Shown in pieces: positions 9,348 through 26,347 of a DNA stretch of 30,362 nucleotides. A program made the position numbers and the translations under genes. The notes beneath the pieces were generated by a model, which was not told the origin of the DNA, searched no databases, and saw only the letters and a list, made by a program, of their open reading frames with translations. Where the stretch lies: IMG/VR virus record IMGVR_UViG_3300042879_001337, positions 1 to 30,362 of that record; one strand, 5' to 3'. The DNA comes from a virus. Each line of letters opens with the position of its first letter. Position 1 is the first letter of the stretch.

Positions 9348-10994
9348 TTAATTTACAATTTTAACATTTGGCTCTATAAGATATGGTTGATTTCTTTGCT
9401 CCATACCATAATCCACTAGAGCAGTTGTTACTATATTTTTCAATAATACATTTTTAATGTTTAGTGCTTTGTCAGAATCAGTGGCATGCCTCTTCCATCT
9501 GATCGGTTGATCTTTGAATATTATGTTTTCCATCAATATATGATTAGCATCAATCATCCACCAAGATCCCGCAACAGAATCTCTGTCTTGTGAAACATCC
9601 CAGTTTACAAAAGCAGTATTATCATATTGCTGAGTACCAGTAACAGAACTACAATTCATTTGGAATGCTTGCATCCAGAATTTTCTTGCTTTGATGTTGT
9701 AGAAAATATTGTTTTCTCTTCTTGGATCTGCCACTGTCAATGAAAAGAAATGAACAAGATCGGCATGATCATCACCTATTCTGACATAATCATCAATAAA
9801 TGCATTTATATGAAGTCCTGTATTTGCTAATGGGGTATCTCCAGGTCTTATCAATTTTGAATTTATAGAAGTTGTTGCACTTCTCATAGTTCCTCTCGTA
9901 TTGTACATCTCACAATTAATGTAATATGTACCTATAAAATTAGAACTAAATTCACTTCCAAGAGTTGGACTTTTAAGTGTTCCATCTGCGTTGTATGCTT
10001 CATAAGTAGCGTAACAATTATTTACAGAAATAATAGAATCTAAATTTCCACCACTTCTTATTTGTGTGCTGGTGATCGTATCATCACAATAAAAAGTAAC
10101 ATTATTTACTTGAAGTAATTTTGTTCCATAATTACCAACACCAACCAATCTTACTTTATCTCTAGTAAGATTAGGTGCTGCTTGAATTGTGATAAATCTG
10201 CTTATAGTTGATGGTGATGGGAATGAAAAAGTACCTACACCATTTGTGTGAGTTCCTTCCATTAACATTATTTTAGCACCATCACAAATTCCATTTTGTG
10301 CAGTTCTAACTATTCTTAATGCTTTACCAATAGTTTTATATGGTTTTTCTTCTGACCCATCAGCAGTATCATCATTGCCATTCGGAGAAACATACATCAC
10401 AATACTTCTCAATGTTTGATGTGCATTCACATTTACAAACATTGAATGATTGCCATCTTTAAATTTAAGATTATTCTCTCCACCCGCTTTTATATTAGTC
10501 AAAGACCCCTGAAGAACTCTTGGCATTCCTATATTTGGGTATACTATAGCTCGAATTTCGATTAATCCATCTTGTGTTTTAGAGGGATCGATGTTTATGA
10601 AATATTCTTCTACATCATTTGATGAATTTAATTTCTTTTCAGTTATAGTTTTCCAACTTCCACCATTTACTGAAAATTCTACACGATTAATTCCACAAAC
10701 ATGAAATGCAATAACTCCCACAGAAAATATTGAACCATATTCTGTATAAGGTACTGTAGTCCATCTTGCTATTGCTTGTGCATCGTAACCCCAATCTGAT
10801 GGAGTTCCTGTATTGTATGGTTGTGTTGTAGGACCATTAAATCCTGTTCCAATATCCGCCGTTTCTATAGTTGGATTTTCTAAAAATATTGCAAGATCAA
10901 TTGCATTTACGATTCCATCTTTATTGTAGTCATACAAAGGATCATTTGTATTCCACGCATTTAATAATTTTGCTAGTTCTTCTGAATTTGACAT
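9348..10994 (-). CDS. Beta-helix surface/fibre protein with N-terminal dockerin-like EF-hand
   Basis: A 548-aa protein. Residues 22-33 (DYNKDGIVNAID) form an exact 12-residue EF-hand loop inside a dockerin-I-like segment (LLNAWN ... LAIFLEN), a type of module abundant in planctomycete exported proteins. Residues about 74-165 form an Ig-like domain (IARWTTVP; RVEFSVNGG). From about 200 a right-handed parallel beta-helix is suggested by VSPNGNDDTADGSEEKPYKTIGKAL and later short Asn/Val-rich repeats. It lacks a signal peptide. It is a paralogue of the next gene rightward (shared ARW-VP and SPNGND-like blocks). Strong ribosome binding site AAGGAGG before the ATG. Tail spike, fibre or adhesin is the likely role; enzymatic activity is not evident. 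Confidence 0.7.
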   Translation of the reverse strand: MSNSEELAKLLNAWNTNDPLYDYNKDGIVNAIDLAIFLENPTIETADIGTGFNGPTTQPYNTGTPSDWGYDAQAIARWTTVPYTEYGSIFSVGVIAFHVCGINRVEFSVNGGSWKTITEKKLNSSNDVEEYFINIDPSKTQDGLIEIRAIVYPNIGMPRVLQGSLTNIKAGGENNLKFKDGNHSMFVNVNAHQTLRSIVMYVSPNGNDDTADGSEEKPYKTIGKALRIVRTAQNGICDGAKIMLMEGTHTNGVGTFSFPSPSTISRFITIQAAPNLTRDKVRLVGVGNYGTKLLQVNNVTFYCDDTITSTQIRSGGNLDSIISVNNCYATYEAYNADGTLKSPTLGSEFSSNFIGTYYINCEMYNTRGTMRSATTSINSKLIRPGDTPLANTGLHINAFIDDYVRIGDDHADLVHFFSLTVADPRRENNIFYNIKARKFWMQAFQMNCSSVTGTQQYDNTAFVNWDVSQDRDSVAGSWWMIDANHILMENIIFKDQPIRWKRHATDSDKALNIKNVLLKNIVTTALVDYGMEQRNQPYLIEPNVKIVN

Positions 10995-12790: not shown

Positions 12791-13459
12791 TTAGCGACGA
12801 CGGCGACCCATCAGACCCGCCATACCAAGAAGAGCAATTGCCCCAGGAGCAGGAGCGGAAAGAACAAACGCACCCCCTGCGGTATTACCGATGAATGTAG
12901 GAAGTGGTCGCCAATCGCCCCACTTGTTCTGTCCATTTTCATCAGTAAACCAGAAGTCTTGAACATTCTGACCCTGCGACCAAACAAATTGATCACCAGC
13001 AGCATCATTGAGTTGTGCTCCAATGTTCATAAAGTATGAACCTGAAGTAATCTGGAATGAAATTGGAACATAAAACTCATAGATTGCTTCACCAAAGAAA
13101 TTAGTTTCTCCAGTTGCAGTCGCAGTAATGTTTTCCAAATCAATAAATTGATTTGTAACTTGTGTTTCAAAGTCTGTATTCCAAACAACGATCTGGAAAC
13201 AATCAACATTTGAAAGACCCTGACCATTGAAACCATTCATAGAACCCCACCACTTCAATGAAGAAGTTGTGTATGAATCCTCAAGTTCAAATCCCTGAGC
13301 ACCACTCTGTGCATAAGTATATGCACCCTTTGATTCAAATGCATCAGAATAGAATCCAACAGTATCAACTACTGGATTGTTAACAACGATGAAATCTGCC
13401 ATTGCCTCAGCACCAAACATTACGGTTGCTACGATACTTGCCATTACATTCTTAATCAT
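12791..13459 (-). CDS. Secreted protein with PEP-CTERM (exosortase) sorting signal
   Basis: A 222-aa protein. The N-terminus is a Sec-type signal peptide (MIKNVMASIVATVMFG-AEAMA, cleavage likely after AMA at 21). The mature part is Asn/Gly/aromatic-rich and probably beta-sheet (many Phe and Trp, no catalytic motif). The C-terminus (about 203-222) reads PAPGAIALLGMAGLMGRRRR: a Pro-rich signature, a hydrophobic helix and an Arg cluster, the architecture of PEP-CTERM signals; the PAPG form is common in planctomycete proteins. PEP-CTERM proteins are processed by a host exosortase and exported to the surface or matrix. It is monocistronic, with a strong promoter and GGAG ribosome binding site upstream and a terminator after it. 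The 3' end is visibly more GC-rich than surrounding DNA, consistent with acquisition from a host. Its role is unknown. Confidence 0.8.
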   Translation of the reverse strand: MIKNVMASIVATVMFGAEAMADFIVVNNPVVDTVGFYSDAFESKGAYTYAQSGAQGFELEDSYTTSSLKWWGSMNGFNGQGLSNVDCFQIVVWNTDFETQVTNQFIDLENITATATGETNFFGEAIYEFYVPISFQITSGSYFMNIGAQLNDAAGDQFVWSQGQNVQDFWFTDENGQNKWGDWRPLPTFIGNTAGGAFVLSAPAPGAIALLGMAGLMGRRRR

Positions 13460-16179: not shown

Positions 16180-16690
16180 TTTTAAATTCCTTCAAAAAGT
16201 CTGATGTCTCTCCCAAAACTCGTTTAATTTGTTGGATTGCAAATTCTATAAACTTTGGATCGTTTTTGATATATTTTGTTATTTTCACAAAATGTTCCCA
16301 ATCATTCATATCAAAGGAATCATAATCCAACTCTCTAGCATGACGAACAAAATTTGACAAATAGTTCTTCATCCCCAAAGGATCTTCTTTATTTGTCTTT
16401 TTCTTTTCCATCCATGCTTCAGTTGCTTGTTCCTCATTGCCAAGTTTGTTTACTAGATTGTTGAAATTCATTTCCCTCTTGCGAAGTGTTGAATACAGTT
16501 CTTCTAGAAATTTTTTATTGTCTTCATGCCAATATTGTAAAGTAACACCATCTACTTTTGAAAAGGTCTTACCATAATCAACTGCCCTGTAAAACAATTC
16601 TTCGTTAGTTTCTCTAACATATTCACTAAATTTAAAATGAAATTCAGCAATTGTAATCAAAGTATCATAATCTTCTTTTGAAATTTTCAT
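16169..16690 (-). CDS. Hypothetical protein between primase and thyX (173 aa)
   Basis: A charged, helix-rich 173-aa protein with no recognised motif, signal or TM. GGAG precedes the ATG; the gene overlaps the primase by 4 nt (ATGA) and thyX by 11 nt. It is therefore co-translated with the replication genes. A replisome accessory role (for instance helicase loading) would fit the location, but the sequence alone does not support naming it. Confidence 0.75.
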   Translation of the reverse strand: MKISKEDYDTLITIAEFHFKFSEYVRETNEELFYRAVDYGKTFSKVDGVTLQYWHEDNKKFLEELYSTLRKREMNFNNLVNKLGNEEQATEAWMEKKKTNKEDPLGMKNYLSNFVRHARELDYDSFDMNDWEHFVKITKYIKNDPKFIEFAIQQIKRVLGETSDFLKEFKNEN

Positions 16691-17667
16691 TTATATTTTC
16701 TCCATGAATTATATGCAAGCATAGCAGATGGTCCACTGTGTGTGTTGGTTTGGATTATATCATGGACATTCATTCCATTCAACACCATATCATTGATATC
16801 TTTTTCTTTGATGTGTGGGGGAAAAATACAAACCTTTTCATTTCTCTCAATTAACTTTTTGAGTGTGTCTGCGACTGATTTGTTTCTAGGTTCATTGTCG
16901 AGAACAAATAACAAATTTTCATTTTGAAATTTTTCTCGTATCTCTAAAAAGTTTCCAACACCCAAACATGCAATTGCATTTGGAAGAAACAAACTGTCGA
17001 ATGGTCCTTCAACAACAATGATTGGTTTGCTTTTATTTAGTTTCTCTATGCCGTATGTTAATTTTAATTTTTCATTTTTCTTAAGAGTTATATACTTTGG
17101 TTTTGCATTTGTAAGAGTTCTCCCCTGAATACCAATACATCTATTGTGTTCATCATAAATTGGTATTATTATTCTTTTGTCATTTAAAAGTTTATAATCG
17201 GGATTAAACTTATTCGCAAGATCACCAAATGTTTCAGTGAACCCAATATTTCTTCCGTGTGTTGGCAATTTTCTATTTTCTATAAATTTGACTGCCTCAT
17301 GTGTCTGTGGAAGTTTTTCAATCAAATCGTACTGGGGCGTATCGAATTTGCTTTCGATGACTACCACCTGTCTCTCCTCTATCTTCTCGGTCTTATCCTT
17401 AAATCTCTCAAGGCAATATTCTTGAAATAAAGGTGGAGATACAATTTCTAGAAATTTATAAATGTTAAAAGATATTCCACAATTGTGACATTTGAAAAAA
17501 TAAGAATTTTCAGAGACGAAAAAATATCCTCTCGCCTTATTCTTATTGACTTCAGAATCTCCACAAATTGGACAACGACAATTTGCCAAATTGTCTTTTT
17601 TCCATTTAAATTTCTCCAAACGATTGGATACTAAATTTATATACTTTTTATCAAGATATGATGACAT
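16687..17667 (-). CDS. 61: DNA primase (T4 gp61 / DnaG type)
   Basis: A 326-aa primase that lays RNA primers for lagging-strand synthesis with the gp41-type helicase. The N-terminal zinc finger is visible as CPIC (32-35) and CHNC (60-63). The TOPRIM region contains VVEGPFDSLFL (218-228), with the conserved Glu and the following acidic loop LDNEPRNK near 256-263. The start at 17667 is an ATG sharing a base with the helicase stop (TAATG); an in-frame TTG four codons upstream is less likely. It overlaps the downstream unknown gene by ATGA. Confidence 0.88.
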   Translation of the reverse strand: MSSYLDKKYINLVSNRLEKFKWKKDNLANCRCPICGDSEVNKNKARGYFFVSENSYFFKCHNCGISFNIYKFLEIVSPPLFQEYCLERFKDKTEKIEERQVVVIESKFDTPQYDLIEKLPQTHEAVKFIENRKLPTHGRNIGFTETFGDLANKFNPDYKLLNDKRIIIPIYDEHNRCIGIQGRTLTNAKPKYITLKKNEKLKLTYGIEKLNKSKPIIVVEGPFDSLFLPNAIACLGVGNFLEIREKFQNENLLFVLDNEPRNKSVADTLKKLIERNEKVCIFPPHIKEKDINDMVLNGMNVHDIIQTNTHSGPSAMLAYNSWRKYK

Positions 17668-19040
17668 TAAAAATTCCAATCATCTGTTTTTGATTTTTTA
17701 AAGTTATCTTTAGTTTGCGTAAATGTTTGTGCTGGTTGTGGTGTAGGTGTTGTATTGTTCTTAATATCAAATACTTTCATCTTGGCACGATTAATACCAA
17801 GAATAAACTTACGATTTACCGCAGTATCATTATACCTGTTCTTCAATTGCTTGACCATGATCTGATTCATCTCTGCCAATTCTTCTGTAGAGATGAGAGC
17901 AAACATGAAATCAGCAGTGGCAGGAAGACCAAAAGATTCAGAAGTATCTTCAAGACCTACATCAGAATTCGAATATCCAGATCGTGTAGTCTGTGTTGCA
18001 CTAAAGATAGGAACACCATATTCAACTGCAAGACCACGAAGTTCTTCTGCGATTGATTTGATATATGTGTATGAATTTATATTGTTACCATTCTTTAGTC
18101 TGGCAGATGCACAGATATTCAAATAGTCAATGAAAATAATGTCTGGTTTAAACTTTCGCTTCAACCATAATTCATCAAGCAAAAATCTAAAGTGATTTAC
18201 ATTTGCAGTTGCTGTAGGATATTCCTTGATGATTAGTTTTCCCTTGACTCCTGCACTTAGATTCTGAATTCTTTTTTCATATACTGTCTTTGGTAACTCT
18301 TTCAAATTGTCCAAAGTAATATCTAACAAATTTGCATCTATTCTTTCTGCAATTCTTTCTTCTGCCATCTCACATGTTATGTAAAGAACATTGGCATTTT
18401 GTTTTAAACAATTCGCTGCATGATGACAAAGAAACAAGGACTTACCGACACCTGTTCCTGCCATAACAATATTAAGAGTCTTTGTAGGAGTTCCACCATT
18501 TGTAATTTGATTAAAGAAATCCAAGTCAAATGGAATTTTCTTTTCAATTGTGTGATAAAAATCATAACGCTGTTCATAATCTTCAATGTAATCATGTCCA
18601 ATGTGGATATCAAACGAAACAGCGAGTGCTTTTGATAAAATATCAGGAATTGATCCATGAGACTGTTGAGACTTGCCATCAATGATTTGAATGGATTCCA
18701 TAATTGCATTATACACCGCTTTCTCTTTGCAGAAAGATTCTGTCTCATTTACCAACCAATCAACATCACAAGATTCCTTAGAGGTTGATATATCTTCAAC
18801 TATATTAGATATCCTCTTAAGTTCATCTTGTGTAATTGATTTATTTTTATCTAGAATAATATACAATGCTTCCTTTGTTGGAAGATTATTATATTTCTGA
18901 ATAAAATCATGAATACTTTCAAAAACAAATTTAACACAACGATCATGAAAATACTCCCTCTTTAAGAAGGGAGTAACTTTTCGTGAGTATGATTCGTTTT
19001 TTAGTAAATTGTGTAGAATGAGTTTTTCAATATCTGTCAT
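17667..19040 (-). CDS. 41: Replicative DNA helicase (T4 gp41 / DnaB family)
   Basis: A 457-aa RecA-fold hexameric helicase. Walker A is AGTGVGKS (194-201), preceded by NGGTPTKTLNIVMA. TCEMAEERIAERIDANLL (222-239) is the DnaB H1a-type region, Walker B lies in DIIFIDYLNI (about 300), and SATQTTRSGY is the H3-type sensor. GAGGAAGA precedes the ATG, which overlaps the uvsX stop (TAATG). The order uvsX, helicase, primase matches the T4-like replication core of marine myoviruses. Confidence 0.92.
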   Translation of the reverse strand: MTDIEKLILHNLLKNESYSRKVTPFLKREYFHDRCVKFVFESIHDFIQKYNNLPTKEALYIILDKNKSITQDELKRISNIVEDISTSKESCDVDWLVNETESFCKEKAVYNAIMESIQIIDGKSQQSHGSIPDILSKALAVSFDIHIGHDYIEDYEQRYDFYHTIEKKIPFDLDFFNQITNGGTPTKTLNIVMAGTGVGKSLFLCHHAANCLKQNANVLYITCEMAEERIAERIDANLLDITLDNLKELPKTVYEKRIQNLSAGVKGKLIIKEYPTATANVNHFRFLLDELWLKRKFKPDIIFIDYLNICASARLKNGNNINSYTYIKSIAEELRGLAVEYGVPIFSATQTTRSGYSNSDVGLEDTSESFGLPATADFMFALISTEELAEMNQIMVKQLKNRYNDTAVNRKFILGINRAKMKVFDIKNNTTPTPQPAQTFTQTKDNFKKSKTDDWNF

Positions 19041-20080
19041 TATTCTTCCTCAGTTTTGGTTTCAGCACCATAACTGAACTCATTATACACTGCCTTGTCG
19101 ATCAGATCAAGTATATCCTTTGTAAAATACTTTTCTGGATTATCATAAATTGTTTTTTCAAAAACTTTTGATCCATCAGGAAGTTCAATTCTTGTAGAAT
19201 TTTTCTTAAAGATTCCAGCATCTACTGCAATATCTACAAGACCGTAATATGGATCAAGACCAGTATCATAATTTAAACGAACATCAATTTGCTTATTTTC
19301 TTTGGTAAATCTACCCTTGTAAAGTTTACAATGAATAATATTACCAACGACCTCCCCATCAGCATTCTTGTCTTTCTTCTTTGAAAGATAAACAATAGTC
19401 GATGCAGCATATTTAAGACCTGTACCACCACCCATCTCAGACATTGGAACATAAGCACCAACTACTTGATAAGTATGATTCGTCATAATCATTGGAATCT
19501 TTGCAATGCCAAGTTTGACTGTGAGAACACGGAAGGTAGACTTCACAATCTGTGCGCGAGTCATGTCTCGCGTTTCCTTTCCTTCCGCAGTATCATTCAT
19601 CTCTTTAGATGTTGACAACATTCCAAGAGAATCAAGAACAATCATTGTTCGCTTTCTATTCTCCTTTGGAAGTTCAAGATATTTGTCAACAATGGTAATT
19701 GCTTGGTGACGGAATTCTTCTACAGTTGATACTGGAAATACTGCAATCCGCTTTGGATCAATTCCACGATTCTTGAACATTTCAGATGTCACTGCTTGTT
19801 CAGAATCAAAATAAAGAACAACTGCATCTGGGTTGTCATTTAAAAACTTTGACACAATCGAAAGAGTAAAATAAGTTTTACCTGTTGAAGATTCACCTGC
19901 CAAAGCAGTAATCTTATTATCTGGCATTCCAGAGTAAATACTTCCACTCAACAATCCATTCAAAAGATAAGTTCCAGTGTCAACAAATCCACTGACATCT
20001 GATCCTTCCAACCCATCGCTAACCAAAGACGCATACTTGTTTCCTGACATTTTAACCATTGACGATAAGAAGTCGCTCAT
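19040..20080 (-). CDS. uvsX: UvsX RecA-like recombinase
   Basis: A 346-aa strand-exchange ATPase used in recombination-dependent replication and repair. Walker A is AGESSTGKT (61-69), Walker [11 protein letters not shown] (about 145-154), and [18 protein letters not shown] (about 217-234) is the RecA/UvsX L2-region pattern. The C-terminus is acidic (TKTEEE), as in other RecA-like proteins. AAAGGAA lies before the ATG. The gene follows the C-terminal polymerase half by 9 nt and is translationally coupled to the helicase. Confidence 0.92.
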
Positions 20081-20089
20081 ATATTCCTT

Positions 20090-21202
20090 TCAACCGAATA
20101 GGTTTTCTAGTGTATTTTTCTTTTCTGTTGACCAACCGATAATATCCAAAATAGAAGTCAGGGGATCGATGAATGATTTTTCAAATTGTAACTTGTAATC
20201 AATATATCCTTCCAACTTAAATTCCTTTGGAAGAACATTTGAAAATGAAATAACTTGATCCTTTCCCATCACACCACCCAAAGGGTTTGGTGTTTTCAAC
20301 ATGAGAAATTTAATCTTATCACCCTCTTGTATTTTACGATACTTTTTACTGATCTTGAATAGATCAATGTAATGATTATAGATCAAAGCACCCTTGACTG
20401 CAATGGGTGTTGATTTTTTATAAATTGTTCCACGATCAGAATATTTATTCAAACCATTGACACTTCTAGGAAATGCAATGTCTTCTGGTGGTAAAGAATA
20501 AAACTCTTTGCGACATGACTCTACAAAATCAATCATGTCTTGTTCTGTACCATTCATCGTGATGTTGATTGCTCTCTTCAAATGCTTACGAACAAATTCA
20601 GGAGTTGAACTACGAGTAGTTTCAATTCCCATGATTTTGAGTTTTGGTTCAGAATAACGAACACCTTCAGAATCCAATACATTCAACATGTATCTTTTCT
20701 TAGCAGTCCAAATGCCCTTATCCGCAATTACTTCTCTACCCATTTGCATTTTGTTTTCATAGGCATTCATAATCTTGGAAAGTTCTTTAAATTTCTTCTC
20801 AATAAATGGAAGAATAATTTTCTCAGAACAATTATCCAAATAATCTGTTTTCTTTTTGGTAGACTCATTTGGAATAAACTTTTGAACCAAACCACTGAGA
20901 TTCAAATATACAGAATCTGTATCAGAAGCAATTACATAATCAACACCATTAGTTCCAACGGTTTGATTTATAAATTCGTTGAGTTTATTTCCAATCCACT
21001 GAATAGACAACTGACCCGACAGAGTGATTGCCTCTGCGAGTTCAGTTGAATAATATCTGAAATACTGATTTCCTATAGCACCATAAGCAGAGTTCAATTG
21101 AATCTTACGAACAAGTTGGAAATTATTATACTTAGAGATATCCAACTCTGTTTGTCTTTTAAGTTTTAACAATTGATCATCTGATAATTTAGAATAATCC
21201 AT
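20090..21202 (-). CDS. 43B: DNA polymerase, C-terminal half (T4 gp43 / family B, split gene)
   Basis: A 370-aa fragment carrying motif B (KIQLNSAYGAIGNQYFRYYS, 33-52), motif C (ASDTDSVYLNL, DTDS at 94-97) and the thumb region (GKKRYxLNV-like TAKKRYMLNVLD, EPKLKIMGIE). The first residues, from MDYSKL, correspond to the second fingers helix, so this half starts at the fingertip. Motif C has Ala-Ser where T4 and RB69 have Tyr-Gly. The last residues, NTLENLFG, are a clamp-binding-like C-terminus as in T4 and RB69. The start at 21202 is preferred over a codon 7 residues upstream because the promoter -10 lies between them. There is no Shine-Dalgarno sequence. It must pair with the N-terminal half at 24112-25593. 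Confidence 0.9.
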   Translation of the reverse strand: MDYSKLSDDQLLKLKRQTELDISKYNNFQLVRKIQLNSAYGAIGNQYFRYYSTELAEAITLSGQLSIQWIGNKLNEFINQTVGTNGVDYVIASDTDSVYLNLSGLVQKFIPNESTKKKTDYLDNCSEKIILPFIEKKFKELSKIMNAYENKMQMGREVIADKGIWTAKKRYMLNVLDSEGVRYSEPKLKIMGIETTRSSTPEFVRKHLKRAINITMNGTEQDMIDFVESCRKEFYSLPPEDIAFPRSVNGLNKYSDRGTIYKKSTPIAVKGALIYNHYIDLFKISKKYRKIQEGDKIKFLMLKTPNPLGGVMGKDQVISFSNVLPKEFKLEGYIDYKLQFEKSFIDPLTSILDIIGWSTEKKNTLENLFG

Positions 21203-21209
21203 AAAGTAT

Positions 21210-21237
21210 AGTATACCACACAAAAATCAAAAATCAA
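21210..21237 (-). promoter_or_regulatory. Sigma70-type promoter, leaderless, for the C-terminal polymerase half
   Basis: TTGATT (21232-21237), a 16-bp spacer and TGG-TATACT (21210-21215) on the minus strand. The ATG begins 7 nt after the -10, so the first transcribed base would be at the start codon. A second TATACT overlaps at 21205-21210. Confidence 0.6.
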
Positions 21238-21593
21238 GACAAAGTAAGAAGATACTTTGTAGTATTTACGATTGAAAGCATTTCATCACGAATATTTAGG
21301 AGATCGCTATCATTTTCATTTAGACTATTTGGAAGATCATTTTGTAGATAATTTCCAAAGGCACTTAAAACCATAAGTGGTTTTGCTTTGTCATAATTGC
21401 TTACAGAAATTGTAAAATCCCCAGCAATTCTTTTTCCATATTTACCCATATATGTTTCAACAAAAGAATCTATAAGAGCATCTAAACCTTCATATGCCTT
21501 TCCCAGTGCTTTGTGTTCTGAATACGAATGTGTTTGCCAATGAAGTATCCTCAATTGACTTTGTACTTTAAGAAAAATATCTACATTAAACAT
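21234..21593 (-). CDS. Small Dps/ferritin-like protein (DUF5856-like from memory)
   Basis: A 119-aa all-helical protein. The segment LHWQTHSYSEHKALG (17-31), followed by LIDSFVE (40-46), resembles the Dps helix pair with HW, a second His, then Asp-x3-Glu; candidate metal ligands are His18, His27, Asp42 and Glu46. Phage proteins with LHWQT..Y.EHKAL are known as a conserved family (DUF5856 in my memory). Iron binding or virion-associated functions are possible; neither is shown. AAAGGAT precedes the ATG and a late box lies just upstream, so it is expressed late, unlike its replication neighbours. Confidence 0.75.
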   Translation of the reverse strand: MFNVDIFLKVQSQLRILHWQTHSYSEHKALGKAYEGLDALIDSFVETYMGKYGKRIAGDFTISVSNYDKAKPLMVLSAFGNYLQNDLPNSLNENDSDLLNIRDEMLSIVNTTKYLLTLS

Positions 21594-21613
21594 AAGTTAT
21601 CCTTTCGATATTA

Positions 21614-21621
21614 TATTTATA
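21614..21621 (-). promoter_or_regulatory. T4-type late promoter (TATAAATA) of the Dps-like gene
   Basis: An exact TATAAATA on the minus strand, 20 nt before the ATG. The predicted start near 21608 gives a short leader that contains AAAGGAT. Confidence 0.75.
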
Positions 21622-21686
21622 TCTTTAAATTAATCATTGTGAAAAATTTGTAGATACATTGAATGTGTCCATCTATCTGCTATTGA

Positions 21687-22298
21687 TCAATCTTCACCGC
21701 TAGCTTGGCTGAAGGCAGCACTTATGTTGAAGACATCCAAGACACTCGCTGTACCAGGTGCAGTCTTCTCAAGCGTCACATCAAAATTACAGGGTGCGCT
21801 TGTGCTTGGAGCAATATAAGAAAACTTCAGTTGATCTCCATCGGCAAATGTCCCTGTTAGCGTAGTTACAAGCCCCGACGATGAACTATTAGTACTAATA
21901 CTATTTATTTCGACATCGTTCTTGTATGCATTGAATGTACCACTGTTAAAGGTTCCGACAGAGGCAAAAGTCACTCTCAATGTCGCAGGACTACCAGTGT
22001 TGACTATGGTTCTGTTGGTATTAAAAACAGTGGTGTTAACATTGCCGTCATTGATAACGATATCATCGAACGGCGCACTCAAGGATGTTTGTTCATCTGG
22101 TGCTGAACTTGCTCGACGGGAACCACCACCACTTGCATCTGCACCAAGTGATGTTGATGTAATAAAATTTTGTAATTGGGTATCACTAATAGAAACTCCA
22201 CTATTAATATCCTCCCAAAGATTTTTTTGATTTTTCTTAAATATTCTTCCGTCCATCAATTTAATGATATTGCCAGTTGGTCGTAAATAAGGATACAT
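21687..22298 (-). CDS. Putative fibre/structural protein (203 aa)
   Basis: A Ser/Thr/Asn/Gly-rich, beta-prone 203-aa protein without signal peptide. The N-terminus (MYPYLRPTGNIIKLMDGRIF) may be a docking segment. A Gly/Ser/Ala linker (DASGGGSRRASSAP) near 68-81 precedes a C-terminal beta domain with a composition similar to the 178-aa protein at 28740-29276. The start at 22298 is chosen because GGAGAA lies 6 nt upstream and a late box precedes it; an earlier in-frame start at 22337 would lie upstream of that late box. Role inferred from composition and late promoter. Confidence 0.65.
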   Translation of the reverse strand: MYPYLRPTGNIIKLMDGRIFKKNQKNLWEDINSGVSISDTQLQNFITSTSLGADASGGGSRRASSAPDEQTSLSAPFDDIVINDGNVNTTVFNTNRTIVNTGSPATLRVTFASVGTFNSGTFNAYKNDVEINSISTNSSSSGLVTTLTGTFADGDQLKFSYIAPSTSAPCNFDVTLEKTAPGTASVLDVFNISAAFSQASGED

Positions 22299-22315
22299 TT
22301 GATTTTCTCCAATAT

Positions 22316-22323
22316 TATTTATA
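22316..22323 (-). promoter_or_regulatory. T4-type late promoter (TATAAATA) of the 203-aa fibre-like gene
   Basis: An exact TATAAATA on the minus strand, overlapping the stop of the 81-aa gene. The predicted start at about 22310 gives a 12-nt leader that begins with the ribosome binding site GGAGAA. Confidence 0.75.
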
Positions 22324-22564
22324 AAGTCAATTTCCATACTCCATTAACAATTACACCACAATCTGGGACATTCTCAGGATTAACCTTTTCCACAGAATAG
22401 CACTGTGTTAATTTCATACCAGATCTAAGTTTATTTAGACTGTCGCACTCATCTACCGCATTTGTTTTCTTTTTAAACACAAGAATACCCTTTCGGGGTT
22501 CTCCCGAAGGGTCTTTCATGTTATCCATCACAAAATTGTCTTTATCAGTAACTATTCCATACAT
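22319..22564 (-). CDS. Small hypothetical protein (81 aa), last of a nested cassette
   Basis: Its ATG overlaps the stop of the 57-aa gene (TAATG), so it is probably translated by coupling. The product is soluble with three Cys (DECDSL, TQCYSV, PDCGVIVNG). A hairpin is embedded in its coding region at 22487-22512. No family recognised. Confidence 0.6.
   Translation of the reverse strand: MYGIVTDKDNFVMDNMKDPSGEPRKGILVFKKKTNAVDECDSLNKLRSGMKLTQCYSVEKVNPENVPDCGVIVNGVWKLTL
22487..22512 (-). other. GC-rich hairpin inside the 81-aa gene
   Basis: ACCCTT and CGGG pair with CCCG and AAGGGT around a 5-nt loop, with one bulged base. The downstream minus-strand sequence (ATTCTTGTG) is not a good T-tract. 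It could be a weak terminator, an RNA processing site or a coding coincidence. Confidence 0.4.
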
Positions 22565-22737
22565 TATATTAATCCATTCTCTTCATCGAAGCGAGTGATC
22601 GCTTCCAGAGCGTATTTGCTTACTTGACTACGAAGTTCCACGATCTCAGCATATGCCTCTGAAATTGTACGAATTACATCAGGTGGGAGATCTTGCCTCT
22701 TGCTCAGAACCCGAAGTTCATAGGCAATGTCTTTCAT
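22564..22737 (-). CDS. Small hypothetical protein (57 aa)
   Basis: A helical 57-aa protein, MKDIAYELRVLSKRQ at the N-terminus and QVSKYALEAITRFDEENG near the C-terminus. It is framed by an ATGA overlap upstream (22734-22737) and a TAATG overlap downstream, the strongest evidence that it is real. Regular heptad-like Leu/Ile/Val spacing suggests a short helical bundle or coiled coil. Function unknown. Confidence 0.6.
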   Translation of the reverse strand: MKDIAYELRVLSKRQDLPPDVIRTISEAYAEIVELRSQVSKYALEAITRFDEENGLI

Positions 22738-22838
22738 GCTTCATTCCCAATTTGATCACTGATTTCTGTGAAAGGAAGGATCGGTAGTTCTGCCACTATT
22801 CCAACACAAGCGGATGCTAAAACTGTTGCGAGTTTCAT
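22734..22838 (-). CDS. Tiny hypothetical protein (34 aa)
   Basis: Starts at MKLATVLASACVGIV, a short hydrophobic, signal-like stretch, and ends with an ATGA overlap into the 57-aa gene. Its own ATG overlaps the stop of the 67-aa gene (ATGA). An upstream extension of this frame exists (to 22964), but it runs antiparallel to no conserved feature and overlaps the 67-aa gene heavily. Could be a small lipoprotein or membrane peptide. Confidence 0.4.
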   Translation of the reverse strand: MKLATVLASACVGIVAELPILPFTEISDQIGNEA

Positions 22839-23038
22839 TGTGTGTTCATCCTGTAATTCATATTCTTTCCTGTTCCAAGTTTGACACCCTCTCCTGGTGG
22901 ACGCACTTTTTCGGATTCTGTGGCAATCGGACGAATTTGATGCGCCCACAAATGCCCTTGGCACTTCACCATAAAAAGTGTTGTTGTGAGAATTGTTATA
23001 GTCACAACATAAAGAGTATGTCTAATCTTTGGTTTCAT
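22835..23038 (-). CDS. Small single-TM protein (67 aa)
   Basis: An N-terminal signal-anchor (TLYVVTITILTTTLFMVKC, about 8-26) is followed by a Pro/Gly-containing tail (RPPGEGVKLGTG). Linked by ATGA overlaps to the 84-aa gene before it and the 34-aa gene after it. The Cys after the hydrophobic segment is not a good lipobox. Function unknown; a membrane-associated small phage protein. Confidence 0.55.
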   Translation of the reverse strand: MKPKIRHTLYVVTITILTTTLFMVKCQGHLWAHQIRPIATESEKVRPPGEGVKLGTGKNMNYRMNTQ

Positions 23039-23289
23039 TGTGATTTATCCTTGTGGCAATCCCATCCACGATTCTCCGCGTAACCCTTCGGATCAAAGTG
23101 TGGAAAATAATGATTCCACCTGACGGTTCCTTTCAATTGGCAAACTTCGCGCCTCGCTTCGTCGCGTTCCGCGCGAAGTCGTTCGATCTCGTCGGCGGCT
23201 TTGAGAAGATCGGCATTGACTATAAAGACAGGAGTTGTCGTATCTACCTGTGTATAGTAGCGCAACCGTGCCACAATATCATCGCTCAT
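23035..23289 (-). CDS. Small coiled-coil protein (84 aa), first of the nested cassette
   Basis: The middle (AADEIERLRAERDEARREV, about 31-49) is a strongly charged coiled coil of a kind common in small phage ORFs. The C-terminus is His/Trp-rich (RWNHYFPHFDPKGY). The coding DNA at about 23150-23230 is visibly GC-rich against its AT-rich surroundings, suggesting recent acquisition. It begins 17 nt after tRNA-Leu(CAA) and overlaps the next gene by ATGA. Confidence 0.65.
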   Translation of the reverse strand: MSDDIVARLRYYTQVDTTTPVFIVNADLLKAADEIERLRAERDEARREVCQLKGTVRWNHYFPHFDPKGYAENRGWDCHKDKSQ

Positions 23290-23305
23290 TCGTCATCCTC
23301 CATAA

Positions 23306-23387
23306 TACCAAAGGTGGGAATCGAACCCACATGCCGTTAGGCAACGGATTTTGAATCCGCCGCGTCTGCCAGTTCCGCCACATTGGT
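23306..23387 (-). tRNA. tRNA-Leu (anticodon CAA)
   Basis: A class II tRNA on the minus strand. Acceptor ACCAATG pairs with CTTTGGT apart from one U-U mismatch; the T arm is GTGGG-TTCGATT-CCCAC; the anticodon loop is TTCAAAA between GGA and TCC; a long variable arm with TGCC/GGCA-type pairing is present. CCA is not encoded. Reads UUG codons. Confidence 0.85.
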
Positions 23388-23391
23388 GTAA

Positions 23392-23475
23392 TGGGAATGG
23401 TGGGAATCGAACCCACACGATCAATTGATCGACAGATTTTAAGTCTGTTGCGTCTGCCTGTTCCGCCACAATCCC
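23392..23475 (-). tRNA. tRNA-Leu (anticodon UAA)
   Basis: A class II tRNA on the minus strand. Acceptor GGGATTG / CATTCCC with one U-U mismatch, anticodon stem ACAGA/TCTGT with loop CTTAAAA, long variable arm GATCAATTGATC, T arm GTGGG-TTCGATT-CCCAC. CCA not encoded. Reads UUA, a frequent codon in AT-rich genomes. Confidence 0.88.
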
Positions 23476-23478
23476 GAA

Positions 23479-23549
23479 CTACCCCGCCTAGATTCGAACT
23501 AGGAAAAAGAGAACCAAAGTCTCCTGTGATACCGTTTCACCACGGGGTA
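23479..23549 (-). tRNA. tRNA-Gln (anticodon UUG)
   Basis: On the minus strand, acceptor TACCCCG / CGGGGTA, anticodon stem GGAGA/TCTCT with loop CTTTGGT, T arm CCTAG-TTCGAAT-CTAGG. The first base directly follows the stop codon of the SpoU gene, so the tRNA must be cut out of the SpoU transcript. CCA not encoded. Confidence 0.88.
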
Positions 23550-24089
23550 TTAAAACACATTACTTGCAAGTGCGTACATTGCAATACCACTTGCGGTCCC
23601 TACATTCAGACTCCTTACAGTTCCATACTGCTTAATATACAGTATGTGGTCACAGATGTCAAGGATTTCTGTTGGAAGACCGACTTGTTCTTGACCAAAT
23701 GCTAGAACATAATGTGTATTTGTATTCCATGAAAATTCATCAATCGCAGAAGCACCTGGCACATTATCTATGCCAATAACTCGTACTGTTCCGTATGTAC
23801 CTCGAATGATTTTGATTCTTTCTTCAAGTTCAGAAAAGGTTCTGGTATGAAGAAAGTTTGTATAATGATGTGTACCGACAGTGCCGCGACGATCATATTG
23901 CTTTGACCCGTAAAGAATTACTTGCTTCGCAAGGAACGCATTTGAGTTACGAATGACTGTAGCAATATTGAAATCGTTATATAGATTGCTACAAACCACG
24001 GTAAAATTATTCCGCTTCGAATCCAAATCCGCAATGATTGCTTCATGCGACCAATAGTGGTAGTGATCGATGATGTTCCTCGTCTCCAT
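23550..24089 (-). CDS. SpoU/TrmH-family RNA 2'-O-methyltransferase
   Basis: A 179-aa SPOUT methyltransferase using S-adenosylmethionine. Motif 1 is NIATVIRNSNAF (41-52) with catalytic-type Arg47. Motif 2 is LAFGQEQVGLP (129-139). Motif 3 is IKQYGTVRSLNVGTASG (152-168), where Gly replaces the usual Ser of SLNVS. The Leu-Gly knot region is therefore complete. Its size equals the bare catalytic domain, as in TrmL. The only ATG is 6 nt after a consensus -10 box and there is no Shine-Dalgarno, so the mRNA is predicted to be leaderless. Three tRNAs follow on the same transcript, including the two Leu isoacceptors that TrmL modifies at wobble position 34 in E. coli, so those tRNAs are attractive substrates. 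rRNA is an alternative. Confidence 0.88.
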   Translation of the reverse strand: METRNIIDHYHYWSHEAIIADLDSKRNNFTVVCSNLYNDFNIATVIRNSNAFLAKQVILYGSKQYDRRGTVGTHHYTNFLHTRTFSELEERIKIIRGTYGTVRVIGIDNVPGASAIDEFSWNTNTHYVLAFGQEQVGLPTEILDICDHILYIKQYGTVRSLNVGTASGIAMYALASNVF

Positions 24090-24095
24090 AGTGGT

Positions 24096-24123
24096 ATTAT
24101 ACCATATCTGGTCACTTTGTCAA
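24096..24123 (-). promoter_or_regulatory. Consensus sigma70-type promoter, leaderless, for the SpoU-tRNA unit
   Basis: TTGACA (24118-24123) and TGG-TATAAT (24096-24101) with a 16-bp spacer, all on the minus strand. The ATG starts 6 nt after the -10. It overlaps the stop end of the N-terminal polymerase gene. Confidence 0.85.
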
Positions 24124-25593
24124 CCCCCTACGCTTGATTTCTGCGTCAATCTTTTCTAGTTCTTTCTTCGCATCGATCATTTTGTTTTTGAAACTTTTAC
24201 GGTCTTTATACATGTTTTCCATGAGGTCTGGAAGAAATCCACGAACATCTTTTCGATATGTTGTTCCATTTGCTGCAATGGAAAGATTCTTGTCTTTAAA
24301 TTCTTCGATGGATTTCATGGAAACAATTCCTTGCTTTAGAATTCCTTCTGGGGAAATTACACCTCTTGCTCCCTCATTTGTAATGGTTTCGGGAGAAATA
24401 TTGTATTGCATGATCAAGTGGGGATACAGACTGTTCAAGTCATATGACACTACCCAATCATGCATTCCAACAATCGGTTCCTTGACATAAGCACCAGCAT
24501 ATTGCTCGTCCTTACTTCCTCGCTTCTTGGAAGGAATTACAATTCCACGATCACTCAGATAATTGTAAATTATCACATCCCATGTTCGAACTTGAGAGAA
24601 TACATCTTGAAAATTTACTCCAGCAGAATATGCCAATGCAACTGCAAGTTCTATTAGTTTTAGTTTCTCTTCAAGCTTCTGAACAAGTTCGACATCTCGA
24701 ATGTTATACTCAATAAACTTTTGAAAATCTTTCTTGTAGAATTCTGTAATGCTTTCGTATTCAGAATAAGAAAGTTTCTTTTCTCCTAACTCAACATATG
24801 AAATATGATTGAGACTATAAGACTCTTGATTCACATATGTAAATGTTTTGTAAAGTTCATAATAATCTAACATTGATATTCCAACGATATCATACATTAG
24901 ATCTTCTCTGCCTTTTCTACTGATAAACTTCTCTTTGATCTTTCCCCACGGAGAAAGCATCTTTGAGTATTTCTTACCAAGAACTTTAGTAATTCTCTTG
25001 ATTAAATACGGAAAGTCGAAGAAACGAATGTTCCAACCCGAGACAATATCAGGGTAATTTTGCGAAAAATATTCAACAAAAGATTTGAGTAGATCTTCTT
25101 CTGCGGTAAATTCGTAAACTTCAATCTTCTCTGTTGTTTTGAATCTTCCTTTACAGAAAGTTGTCTTTCCATTTTTAGTTGATGAGATCGTGATAGCAAT
25201 AACTTCTTCTTCTGGATTCTCGACAGAGGGGAATCCTTTTTCTGACGATGTTTCGATGTCGATGTATGCGATATCGAGTTTTGAGAAGTCATATGAGATA
25301 CTGGTTCCGTAAATATTATTTATAAATTTATATTCTACAGGAATATCGCCATGAATATCAAAGTTCTTAATGTTGGAATATTGATCAATAAATTCTTTGT
25401 AAGAATCATATGATTCAAATTTTATTTCGGAAAGATATTTCCCATCAATGGATTTGAACTTTGTCTTGTCGTTTGATGACAAGAACAAAGAGTTTTGAAA
25501 ATCAACTTCATTATAATTAGTATCTCCAAATTCATCCTTCTCTGCAAGGAGAATTTTCTTGTAATCATAATAAACATTCGTGTAAAACTTCAT
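24112..25593 (-). CDS. 43A: DNA polymerase, N-terminal half (T4 gp43 / family B, split gene)
   Basis: A 493-aa fragment with a complete 3'-5' exonuclease: Exo I YIDIETSS (Asp112, Glu114), Exo II GWNIRFFDFPYL (Asp193) and Exo III YNIRDVELV (Asp300). Polymerase motif A is SYDLNSLYPHLIMQYN (Asp385). It ends in MYKDRKSFKNKMIDAKKELE and IDAEIKRRGLTK, matching the first fingers helix of RB69 polymerase, so it stops at the fingertip before motif B. Together with the 370-aa half the total is 863 aa, close to the 903 of RB69. The start at 25593 is chosen because the -10 box lies between it and an earlier in-frame codon at 25620. No Shine-Dalgarno is present. Confidence 0.92.
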   Translation of the reverse strand: MKFYTNVYYDYKKILLAEKDEFGDTNYNEVDFQNSLFLSSNDKTKFKSIDGKYLSEIKFESYDSYKEFIDQYSNIKNFDIHGDIPVEYKFINNIYGTSISYDFSKLDIAYIDIETSSEKGFPSVENPEEEVIAITISSTKNGKTTFCKGRFKTTEKIEVYEFTAEEDLLKSFVEYFSQNYPDIVSGWNIRFFDFPYLIKRITKVLGKKYSKMLSPWGKIKEKFISRKGREDLMYDIVGISMLDYYELYKTFTYVNQESYSLNHISYVELGEKKLSYSEYESITEFYKKDFQKFIEYNIRDVELVQKLEEKLKLIELAVALAYSAGVNFQDVFSQVRTWDVIIYNYLSDRGIVIPSKKRGSKDEQYAGAYVKEPIVGMHDWVVSYDLNSLYPHLIMQYNISPETITNEGARGVISPEGILKQGIVSMKSIEEFKDKNLSIAANGTTYRKDVRGFLPDLMENMYKDRKSFKNKMIDAKKELEKIDAEIKRRGLTK

Positions 25594-25599
25594 ATGCGT

Positions 25600-25628
25600 A
25601 TTATACCATACCATTCTCATCTACACAA
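25600..25628 (-). promoter_or_regulatory. Extended -10 promoter, leaderless, for the N-terminal polymerase half
   Basis: TATGG-TATAAT (-10 at 25600-25605) with a weak TTGTGT at 17 bp on the minus strand. The ATG begins 6 nt downstream. The string ATGGTATAATAC is also found at the SpoU and PEP-CTERM promoters. Confidence 0.6.
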
Positions 25629-26347
25629 CAATTATCTAAACACTTTTCAAATGGTTTTGCTTTGATATTTGTTTGATGATCGTGAAACTTTTGACCATCC
25701 TTGTATATTCCACGCAAATAATCTCTTTCACCTTTGTTTCCATTTTCTTTTAGATGAGCATTATAGTGCTTTCTTGAATCTGCCCATTCTCTATACTTCT
25801 GATTAAATTCTGGATCGTTTTCTAAAGATTCAATTCTTGGATCAAATTGCTCTATAAAATTTCTTTGATAAGGAAATATAGTACAGAATGGTTCTCCTTC
25901 TTCGAATATCACATCATAATTTGGTTCTGTTATCTTCCAATTCATGGTGAATGTAAATGGCAACCAATCTGTCTCTACCATTCCCTCAAGAGGACTTACT
26001 CCTCTCTTTGGATTATTTGCTGGTCCCTTGACATAAAGATTTATTCCAGGATCAGTCTTCATCAAGTAACCAGTGTGCATGGTGATGATACCAGATCCGA
26101 AGTGAGACAATGCAATTTCTGGTTTACCAAAAAAATTAAACTTGACTGCTCCAATATCATTATTACCATTCCATCTTGCAGCAAATTTATAAGGACAAAC
26201 AAATGTCCATCCAAATCCATTTGCAACTGTCAATGGAAGACAACGATACGCAAATCCATTCGGCGTATCGTCCATCCACTTTCTTTTTTTGTCTGGCAAA
26301 TGTATATCGGTGATCTGATGACCAGCAATGTATGCAGTGATTTTCAT
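25601..26347 (-). CDS. DUF6065-like protein (248 aa)
   Basis: A 248-aa protein with a conserved-looking block WMDDTPNGFAYRCLP (24-38), followed by ANGFGWTFVCP and AARWNG, which I recall as typical of DUF6065 proteins found in phages and some bacteria. The C-terminal part is charged and Lys/His-rich with Cys residues at the end (CLDNCC). It overlaps the Nmad1-like gene by ATGA. Function unknown; beta-rich, possibly an enzyme of small-molecule or DNA modification, by neighbourhood only. Confidence 0.7.
   Translation of the reverse strand: MKITAYIAGHQITDIHLPDKKRKWMDDTPNGFAYRCLPLTVANGFGWTFVCPYKFAARWNGNNDIGAVKFNFFGKPEIALSHFGSGIITMHTGYLMKTDPGINLYVKGPANNPKRGVSPLEGMVETDWLPFTFTMNWKITEPNYDVIFEEGEPFCTIFPYQRNFIEQFDPRIESLENDPEFNQKYREWADSRKHYNAHLKENGNKGERDYLRGIYKDGQKFHDHQTNIKAKPFEKCLDNCCVDENGMV

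Follow-up and report, generated by a model that had tools for sequence, protein, structure and literature searches.

Split gp43 in described phages

Polymerases of the T4 type (gp43) that are split into two chains have previously been known from a few cultured Straboviridae. In the Aeromonas phages 44RR, 25, Aes002 and 65 the gene is broken at the tip of the fingers domain, with both halves on the same strand and separated by 2–49 bp or by one GIY-YIG gene. The split chains of 44RR and phage 25 are reported to co-purify and to show polymerase activity (PMC2988022, citing Petrov 2010). Aes144 gp43 is in three pieces with a split-intein annotation, and is split at the same fingertip. Among the Acinetobacter phages, split gp43 has been noted for ZZ1 (PMC4177764), and in vB_AbaM_Lazarus the gene is split at the fingertip into 43A and 43B, which are 2.98 kb apart. 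Several genes fill this gap, namely five small open reading frames (ORFs) and an antisense homing endonuclease gene, and no tRNAs or SpoU gene are annotated in it. No description of cargo turnover or of reassortment of the halves was found for Lazarus. The locus considered here is a gp43 gene split in the same place in IMG/VR record IMGVR_UViG_3300042879_001337. The window is the complete record of 30,362 bp, which is a fragment of a phage genome.

Essential replication genes split by homing endonucleases into subunits that reassemble are also known, namely T4 topoisomerase genes 39/60, split by mobA, and Aeh1 nrdA (PMC2988022, PMC5009743). These are other genes, however, and no description of a large variable cargo region was found for them. 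In the homing endonuclease gene (HEG) islands of phages, nuclease genes are found near essential genes at the boundaries of genetic exchange (PMC10448857), whereas in the window the exchange boundary is inside a former single gene. PHROG families 2062 (502 positions) and 1918 (382 positions) are half-length polymerase clusters that the window halves match almost end to end; no paper describing the gene arrangement of these two families was found. Several gp43 pieces are annotated in metaG-MbCM1, as fragments without cargo.

The gp43 locus of the window

The window shares the fingertip break, the partition of the motifs and the same-strand placement of the halves with the Aeromonas phages, a likeness that the sequence-only reading of this DNA had recognised. 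Its gap differs from theirs in being 2.9 kb long, with tRNAs, SpoU and small genes. A large multi-gene gap had been taken as a departure from known splits, yet Lazarus provides a precedent of 2.98 kb. Fingertip-split gp43 as a kind, including a multi-gene gap, is therefore already known. What is new is that the split is the rule in a large uncultured clade, together with the tRNA-SpoU cargo, its measured turnover and one reassorted pair of halves. The tRNA-SpoU arrangement was not found described in the openly accessible literature, although papers under subscription may have been missed.

The sequences of the window and its relatives hold a gp43 split conserved across the clade, purifying selection, turnover of the cargo, one chimeric pair and a GIY-YIG family at a shared site. 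Read together, they suggest, with a probability of about 0.78, that the locus encodes the replicative family B DNA polymerase (PolB) of an uncultured T4-like phage in the form of two chains, which would assemble into one enzyme, and that a fingertip split driven by a homing endonuclease has turned into a site of cargo and exchange. The parts of the locus on which this rests are as follows.

24112..25593, minus strand: N half of gp43 (43A), 493 amino acids (aa), with the exonuclease domain, motif A and the first fingers helix (ORF, PDB match to RB69 gp43, PF03104, PF00136, phrog_2062, structure model)
20090..21202, minus strand: C half of gp43 (43B), 370 aa, with the second fingers helix, motifs B and C, the thumb and the clamp-binding tail LENLFG (ORF, RB69 match, phrog_1918)
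21203..24111, minus strand: gap between the halves, 2,909 bp
24112..24150, minus strand: N-half tail IDAEIKRRGLTK, followed by the stop codon, extending fingers helix 1 beyond the fused cyanophage homologues (alignment, model)
21143..21202, minus strand: C-half head MDYSKLSDDQLLKLKRQTEL, the start of fingers helix 2 (alignment)

The N half runs from an ATG at 25593 to a stop at 24112 and the C half from an ATG at 21202 to a stop at 20090, both on the minus strand. Their sum of 863 aa is full length for a T4-type PolB. By sequence match, the N half aligns with RB69 gp43 residues ~1–499 and the C half from residue 535/554 to the end, such that the halves cover RB69/T4 gp43 without overlap. The matches to the half-length PHROG families are similarly complete, with N-half residues 1–490 matching positions 2–500 of 502 in phrog_2062 and C-half residues 2–370 matching positions 12–381 of 382 in phrog_1918. 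The alignment of the N half shows invariant exonuclease motifs and an invariant motif A, and that of the C half shows conservation of motifs B and C, KKRY and the LENLFG tail; among 30 aligned relatives for the N half and 29 for the C half, the key residues vary hardly or not at all. The division into two halves, the coordinates and motif content given for them and their near full-length sum were therefore described correctly in the sequence-only reading. In the tree the window gp43 groups with cyanophage-type gp43 and is distant from those of T4, RB69 and 44RR.

Alignments with T4, RB69, 44RR, Lazarus and phage 65 put the break where it had been proposed, between the two fingers helices; 44RR and phage 25 are split at this position. 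The N-half tail overruns the fused cyanophage homologues by ~12 residues. The C-half head, of ~20 residues, is common to the split relatives and missing in short-tip fused homologues. The model of the N half (predicted local distance difference test score, pLDDT, 83.5; template modelling score, TM, 0.81–0.84 against RB69 gp43) terminates in a single helix, residues 453–488. Modelled alone, the C half is poorly ordered around the palm. A need for its partner would explain this, but the alignment was shallow and the evidence is accordingly weak. In the assembled enzyme the exonuclease would come from the N chain, as would fingers helix 1 and the aspartate of motif A. Motif B, the aspartates of motif C and fingers helix 2 would be provided by the C chain, along with the thumb and the clamp tail. 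With the chains ending and beginning at a solvent-exposed fingertip, the active site could be rebuilt without a covalent link.

Alternatives to a two-chain polymerase

Metagenome contigs may be chimeric and the window record is a fragment, so that the halves might be contiguous in the real genome or derive from different phages. The probability of such an assembly artefact is close to nil. Contig L004, which has another metagenome identifier (IMG 3300042453), is 100% identical to the window over 6,964 bp spanning both halves and the gap, and L005, 99.6% identical with 17 differences, reaches the same N-half stop. The same break point had been proposed as something to seek in other phages, and dozens of further related contigs, at 57–84% identity, end and restart at the same residues with differing contents in the gap. 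These independent contigs rule out an assembly error. Incompleteness of the window's phage genome also leaves room for one or both halves being relics, with another polymerase replicating the phage. This is quite improbable, as all of the catalytic residues are intact and the pairwise ratio of nonsynonymous to synonymous substitution rates (dN/dS) between split relatives is 0.02–0.11 in both halves, indicating strong purifying selection on each. In addition, a full-length gp43 elsewhere was looked for. The sequence-only reading had named this and an assembly error as refuting results, and neither was found. The 156.7-kb and 117.8-kb split relatives contain only the two gp43 halves, with no further PolB and no PolA; the window itself covers 30,362 bp. 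Slightly more improbable still is removal of the gap after transcription or translation, as an intron or a split intein, giving a single-chain polymerase. There is a group I intron in 43B of phage 25, the 43B of Aes144 is annotated with a split intein, and the PolB of MIJ3 has a split intein (PMC6892783). However, an Rfam scan of 19900–26000 found only tRNAs above cut-off, with no group I intron in the window gap even at a permissive threshold, while the same library detected the phage 25 intron as a positive control; a group I intron is therefore ruled out. In the N half the stop comes ~12 residues beyond the region of homology, and the C half has an ATG and a promoter of its own, so that intein halves would have no space. 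By alignment, intein parts are absent at the inner ends, where the N half finishes with KRRGLTK before its stop and the C half starts MDYSKL. With no extra sequence at these ends an intein is also ruled out, and split relatives conserve the tail and the head. The presence of the same split in related contigs, the purifying selection and the lack of another PolB or of PolA in the long relatives make a two-chain gp43 enzyme likely, its assembly and activity being what we infer from sequence comparison.

Genes in the gap

23550..24089, minus strand: SpoU-family RNA 2'-O-methyltransferase, 179 aa (PF00588, E 1.7e-23)
23479..23549, minus strand: tRNA-Gln(UUG) (ARAGORN, Rfam)
23392..23475, minus strand: tRNA-Leu(UAA) (ARAGORN, Rfam)
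23306..23387, minus strand: tRNA-Leu(CAA) (ARAGORN)
23035..23289, minus strand: small ORF, 84 aa, without a match in family searches
22564..22737, minus strand: small ORF, 57 aa, with a near-identical copy in the L178 gap
22319..22564, minus strand: small ORF, 81 aa, found in the gap of the window and of seven relatives' loci
21687..22337, minus strand: ORF of 216 aa, with a homologue in the L028 gap and no Pfam or PHROG family match
21234..21593, minus strand: DUF5856 protein, 119 aa (PF19174, E 1.9e-20; phrog_858, E 1.3e-17)

The SpoU methylase and the three tRNAs had been identified from the sequence alone, and the Pfam match and ARAGORN agree with this. A gene described as Dps-like is present, although it matches DUF5856 instead, and the label fibre-like for the 216 aa ORF finds no support in Pfam or PHROG. 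Among NCBIfam models the nearest to the SpoU protein are RlmB and TrmH, all below cut-off. Identity with TrmL, the tRNA-Leu wobble methylase, is attractive because two tRNA-Leu genes adjoin the SpoU gene; it was rejected since RlmB and TrmH score higher, with all far below cut-off. Searches of NCBIfam, Pfam and PHROG recognised no homing endonuclease gene or remnant of one in the window gap.

Across the window's clade the gap ranges from ~0.17 kb (L051) to 8.0 kb (L178). The smallest gaps (L046, L051, L052 and L053) contain little besides tRNA-Leu(UAA), which is the most widespread gap element and nearly universal in the clade. SpoU is the first gap gene in most large-gap relatives, with 17 relatives' loci having it in this place. 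A 2OG-Fe(II) oxygenase and a metallophosphoesterase are also found as cargo, as are PEP-CTERM-like proteins and a sugar-nucleotide dehydratase that were annotated by eye. A DUF6065 gene, recognised by sequence likeness, is upstream of the N part in the window and within the gap in L012 and L061. Homing endonucleases are also part of this variation. In contig L006, which is 97.6% identical to the window over an aligned 2.3 kb that includes the N part, the two tRNA-Leu genes are separated by an HNH endonuclease gene; in the window they are four bases apart. HNH genes are likewise in the gaps of L026, L028, L044, L094 and L096, and another was annotated by eye in the gap of L142/L145. The genes of the gap had been called unrelated. 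The window's own gap is without a nuclease, but since homing endonucleases are in the gap of close relatives, including L006, the gap content is not unrelated to the known mechanism.

Between the window and L012, DNA identity is 95.2% for SpoU and 100% for the tRNA pair, against 73.9% and 80.3% for the polymerase halves. This contrast shows that cassettes move between lineages independently of their flanks. Flanked by highly conserved essential genes, the gap would act as a neutral site for cargo and exchange, with tRNA genes, small genes, HNH endonucleases and the SpoU methylase entering it, leaving it and being traded there. The relatives offer stages for comparison: a fused gene, a fresh split that has a nuclease, a split with just a tRNA, and a split widened by up to 8 kb of cargo, with one three-piece case. 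That case is L044 (6205–10939), where gp43 is in three pieces with ORFs of 423, 103 and 371 aa. Its N half is itself interrupted, by a Mom-family gene (Pfam E 1e-27) that lies between motif A and the fingers; this is seen in a single contig. The HNH-like gene between the halves of L145 (4080–4900), annotated by eye, has no Pfam match. In its near relative L148 (3680–3990) the ATG of the C half overlaps the N-half stop (TAATGG), and the C half has an extra N-terminal leader.

Promoters

21210..21237, minus strand: promoter-like TTGATT-16-TATACT, 7 nt before the C-half ATG, at a position shared by most large-gap relatives
24096..24123, minus strand: consensus promoter TTGACA-16-TATAAT, 6 nt before the SpoU ATG, with 12/12 consensus bases
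25600..25605, minus strand: -10-like TATAAT, 6 nt before the N-half ATG

In most large-gap relatives the C half has a -10 box 6–7 bases before its ATG and a -35-like hexamer 16–17 bases further upstream. The box is significant against shuffles in the window, L012, L036, L061, L088, L095, L096 and L105 (p 0.000–0.040), and is missing in small-gap relatives, in which the C part starts directly after the upstream ORF or overlaps with it. When the region was scanned for promoters in general there was no excess over shuffles, therefore the evidence for the promoter is its conserved position and not the scan. A promoter for each half had been proposed; this is upheld for the C half by position-specific conservation, and a similar box precedes the N half in the window. 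Each half would begin its own transcription unit. For four genes, namely the N half, SpoU, the C half and a dUTPase (upstream of 28518), the -10 box ends 6–7 nt short of the ATG, a spacing from which leaderless mRNAs are predicted.

Exchange of the halves

The N half of L043 groups with L036/L040 and its C half with L061, each with 100/100 support, and the alternatives to these groupings are rejected by approximately unbiased (AU) tests (p 6e-5 and 3e-5). DNA identity in L043 switches inside the gap, next to a tRNA-Gly. Crossovers in the gap could pair halves from different lineages, and this chimera indicates that a split replicative polymerase can be of mixed ancestry, or at any rate that such mixing is tolerated. 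It is the one case of reassortment. As a natural chimera, L043 is a ready test of subunit compatibility, and the clade makes testable how a core enzyme survives a cut in the moving fingers domain and whether such cuts enable exchange of parts of the replication machine.

The split lineages are intermingled with fused ones in the tree, where the fused L062, L070, L073 and L078 nest with strong support beside the split L046 and L053, and L055 and L142/L145/L148 stand apart from the other split lineages. The four fused contigs may represent re-fusion of a split polymerase or its replacement by a fused allele, or the split may have been gained a second time. On a broader view, the fingertip may be a recurrent and horizontally mobile split point, with nucleases moving the split allele, tail and head included, into fused genes. 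The gap would then be a hub of exchange where the halves serve as homology arms, cargo is traded and the halves are reassorted, producing natural chimeric enzymes. We consider the chances of this wider scheme to be evenly balanced.

Origin of the split

A homing endonuclease gene probably entered the fingertip coding region of the gp43 gene. The contigs L055, L056 and L129 are one population, >99.5% identical, with the order 43A, GIY-YIG gene, 43B, and in the coding regions of the polymerase they share ~93% identity with fused L069. Their endonuclease is 234 aa long (Pfam SegE, E 1.6e-5). When compared with 943 matched phage records, its top matches are the nucleases between the gp43 halves of Aeromonas Aes002 and phage 25 (40%, E 2e-32 and 8e-32), with generic seg genes trailing at 32%. 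Judged by these comparisons, the L055 lineage gained its split recently, together with a GIY-YIG endonuclease akin to that of phage 25. In L169, a third lineage, the nuclease is directly upstream of a C part. Together with the L055-type contigs and phage 25/Aes002, this ties the nuclease family to the site in at least three lineages. In the window's lineage the nuclease would since have been lost from the gap or, within the clade, replaced by HNH types.

The split may instead have arisen through insertion of tRNA-Leu(UAA) or another element that is not a nuclease, with homing endonucleases invading the gap later. The smallest gaps, with little in them besides this nearly universal tRNA, fit such an order of events, and it has been argued for phage 25 that the nuclease possibly entered an already split gene (PMC2988022). 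Against it, L055 shows a recent nuclease-bearing split at exactly this site when compared with its near-identical fused sister, and a related nuclease is at the same site in phage 25, making the tRNA origin rather unlikely, if still a serious contender. Some findings do weigh against the nuclease-driven two-chain reading. The window gap is without a homing endonuclease and the window's own split, for which we infer a nuclease origin, may have another, such as tRNA-Leu(UAA) entry. The split set is not one clade; a single origin of the split in the sampled clade is rejected by the AU test (p 1e-6), and transfer of the split allele, re-fusion, or both must therefore be assumed. The record is also a fragment, so that a second gp43 in the window's own phage is possible.

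In contigs of the L055 type, motif B of the C half is interrupted by an insert of 9 nt that contains an in-frame stop (L055:5619–5790, also L056 and L129). The insert reads GGT-TAA-CTA-GGT-AAT where the fused L069 reads GGT-AAT, and a pattern scan for more stop-containing inserts in motif B found only these three contigs. It is at the site of the phage 25 group I intron, next to the GIY-YIG gene, and the matched GGT codons around the stop resemble the T4 gene 60 bypass. The 50-nt insert of gene 60 is believed to give protection from a homing endonuclease (PMC5009743). The L055-type insert could be a protective insert with ribosome hopping, or could mark a dead C half. The sequence after the stop has a dN/dS of 0.046 against L069, of which most of the divergence may predate the insert.

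Neighbouring genes and possible host

The order of the replication cluster is T4-like, with gp43 followed by uvsX, gp41 and gp61 according to PHROG matches of the downstream genes.

19040–20080: UvsX (PHROG match)
17667–19040: helicase, gp41 (PHROG match)
16687–17679: primase, gp61 (PHROG match)

Elsewhere in the window, the protein encoded at 12791–13459 ends in APAPGAIALLGMAGLMGRRRR, a PEP-CTERM-like sorting signal, and that at 9348–10994 has a weak dockerin-like repeat at its start. The C-terminus of the PEP-CTERM-like protein matches one metagenome-assembled genome, KTt_bin-0236 (87% over 23 aa); a search for a Planctomycetes 16S probe site found none. The sorting signal and the repeat suggest a host with surface proteins of these types, perhaps one of the Planctomycetota.

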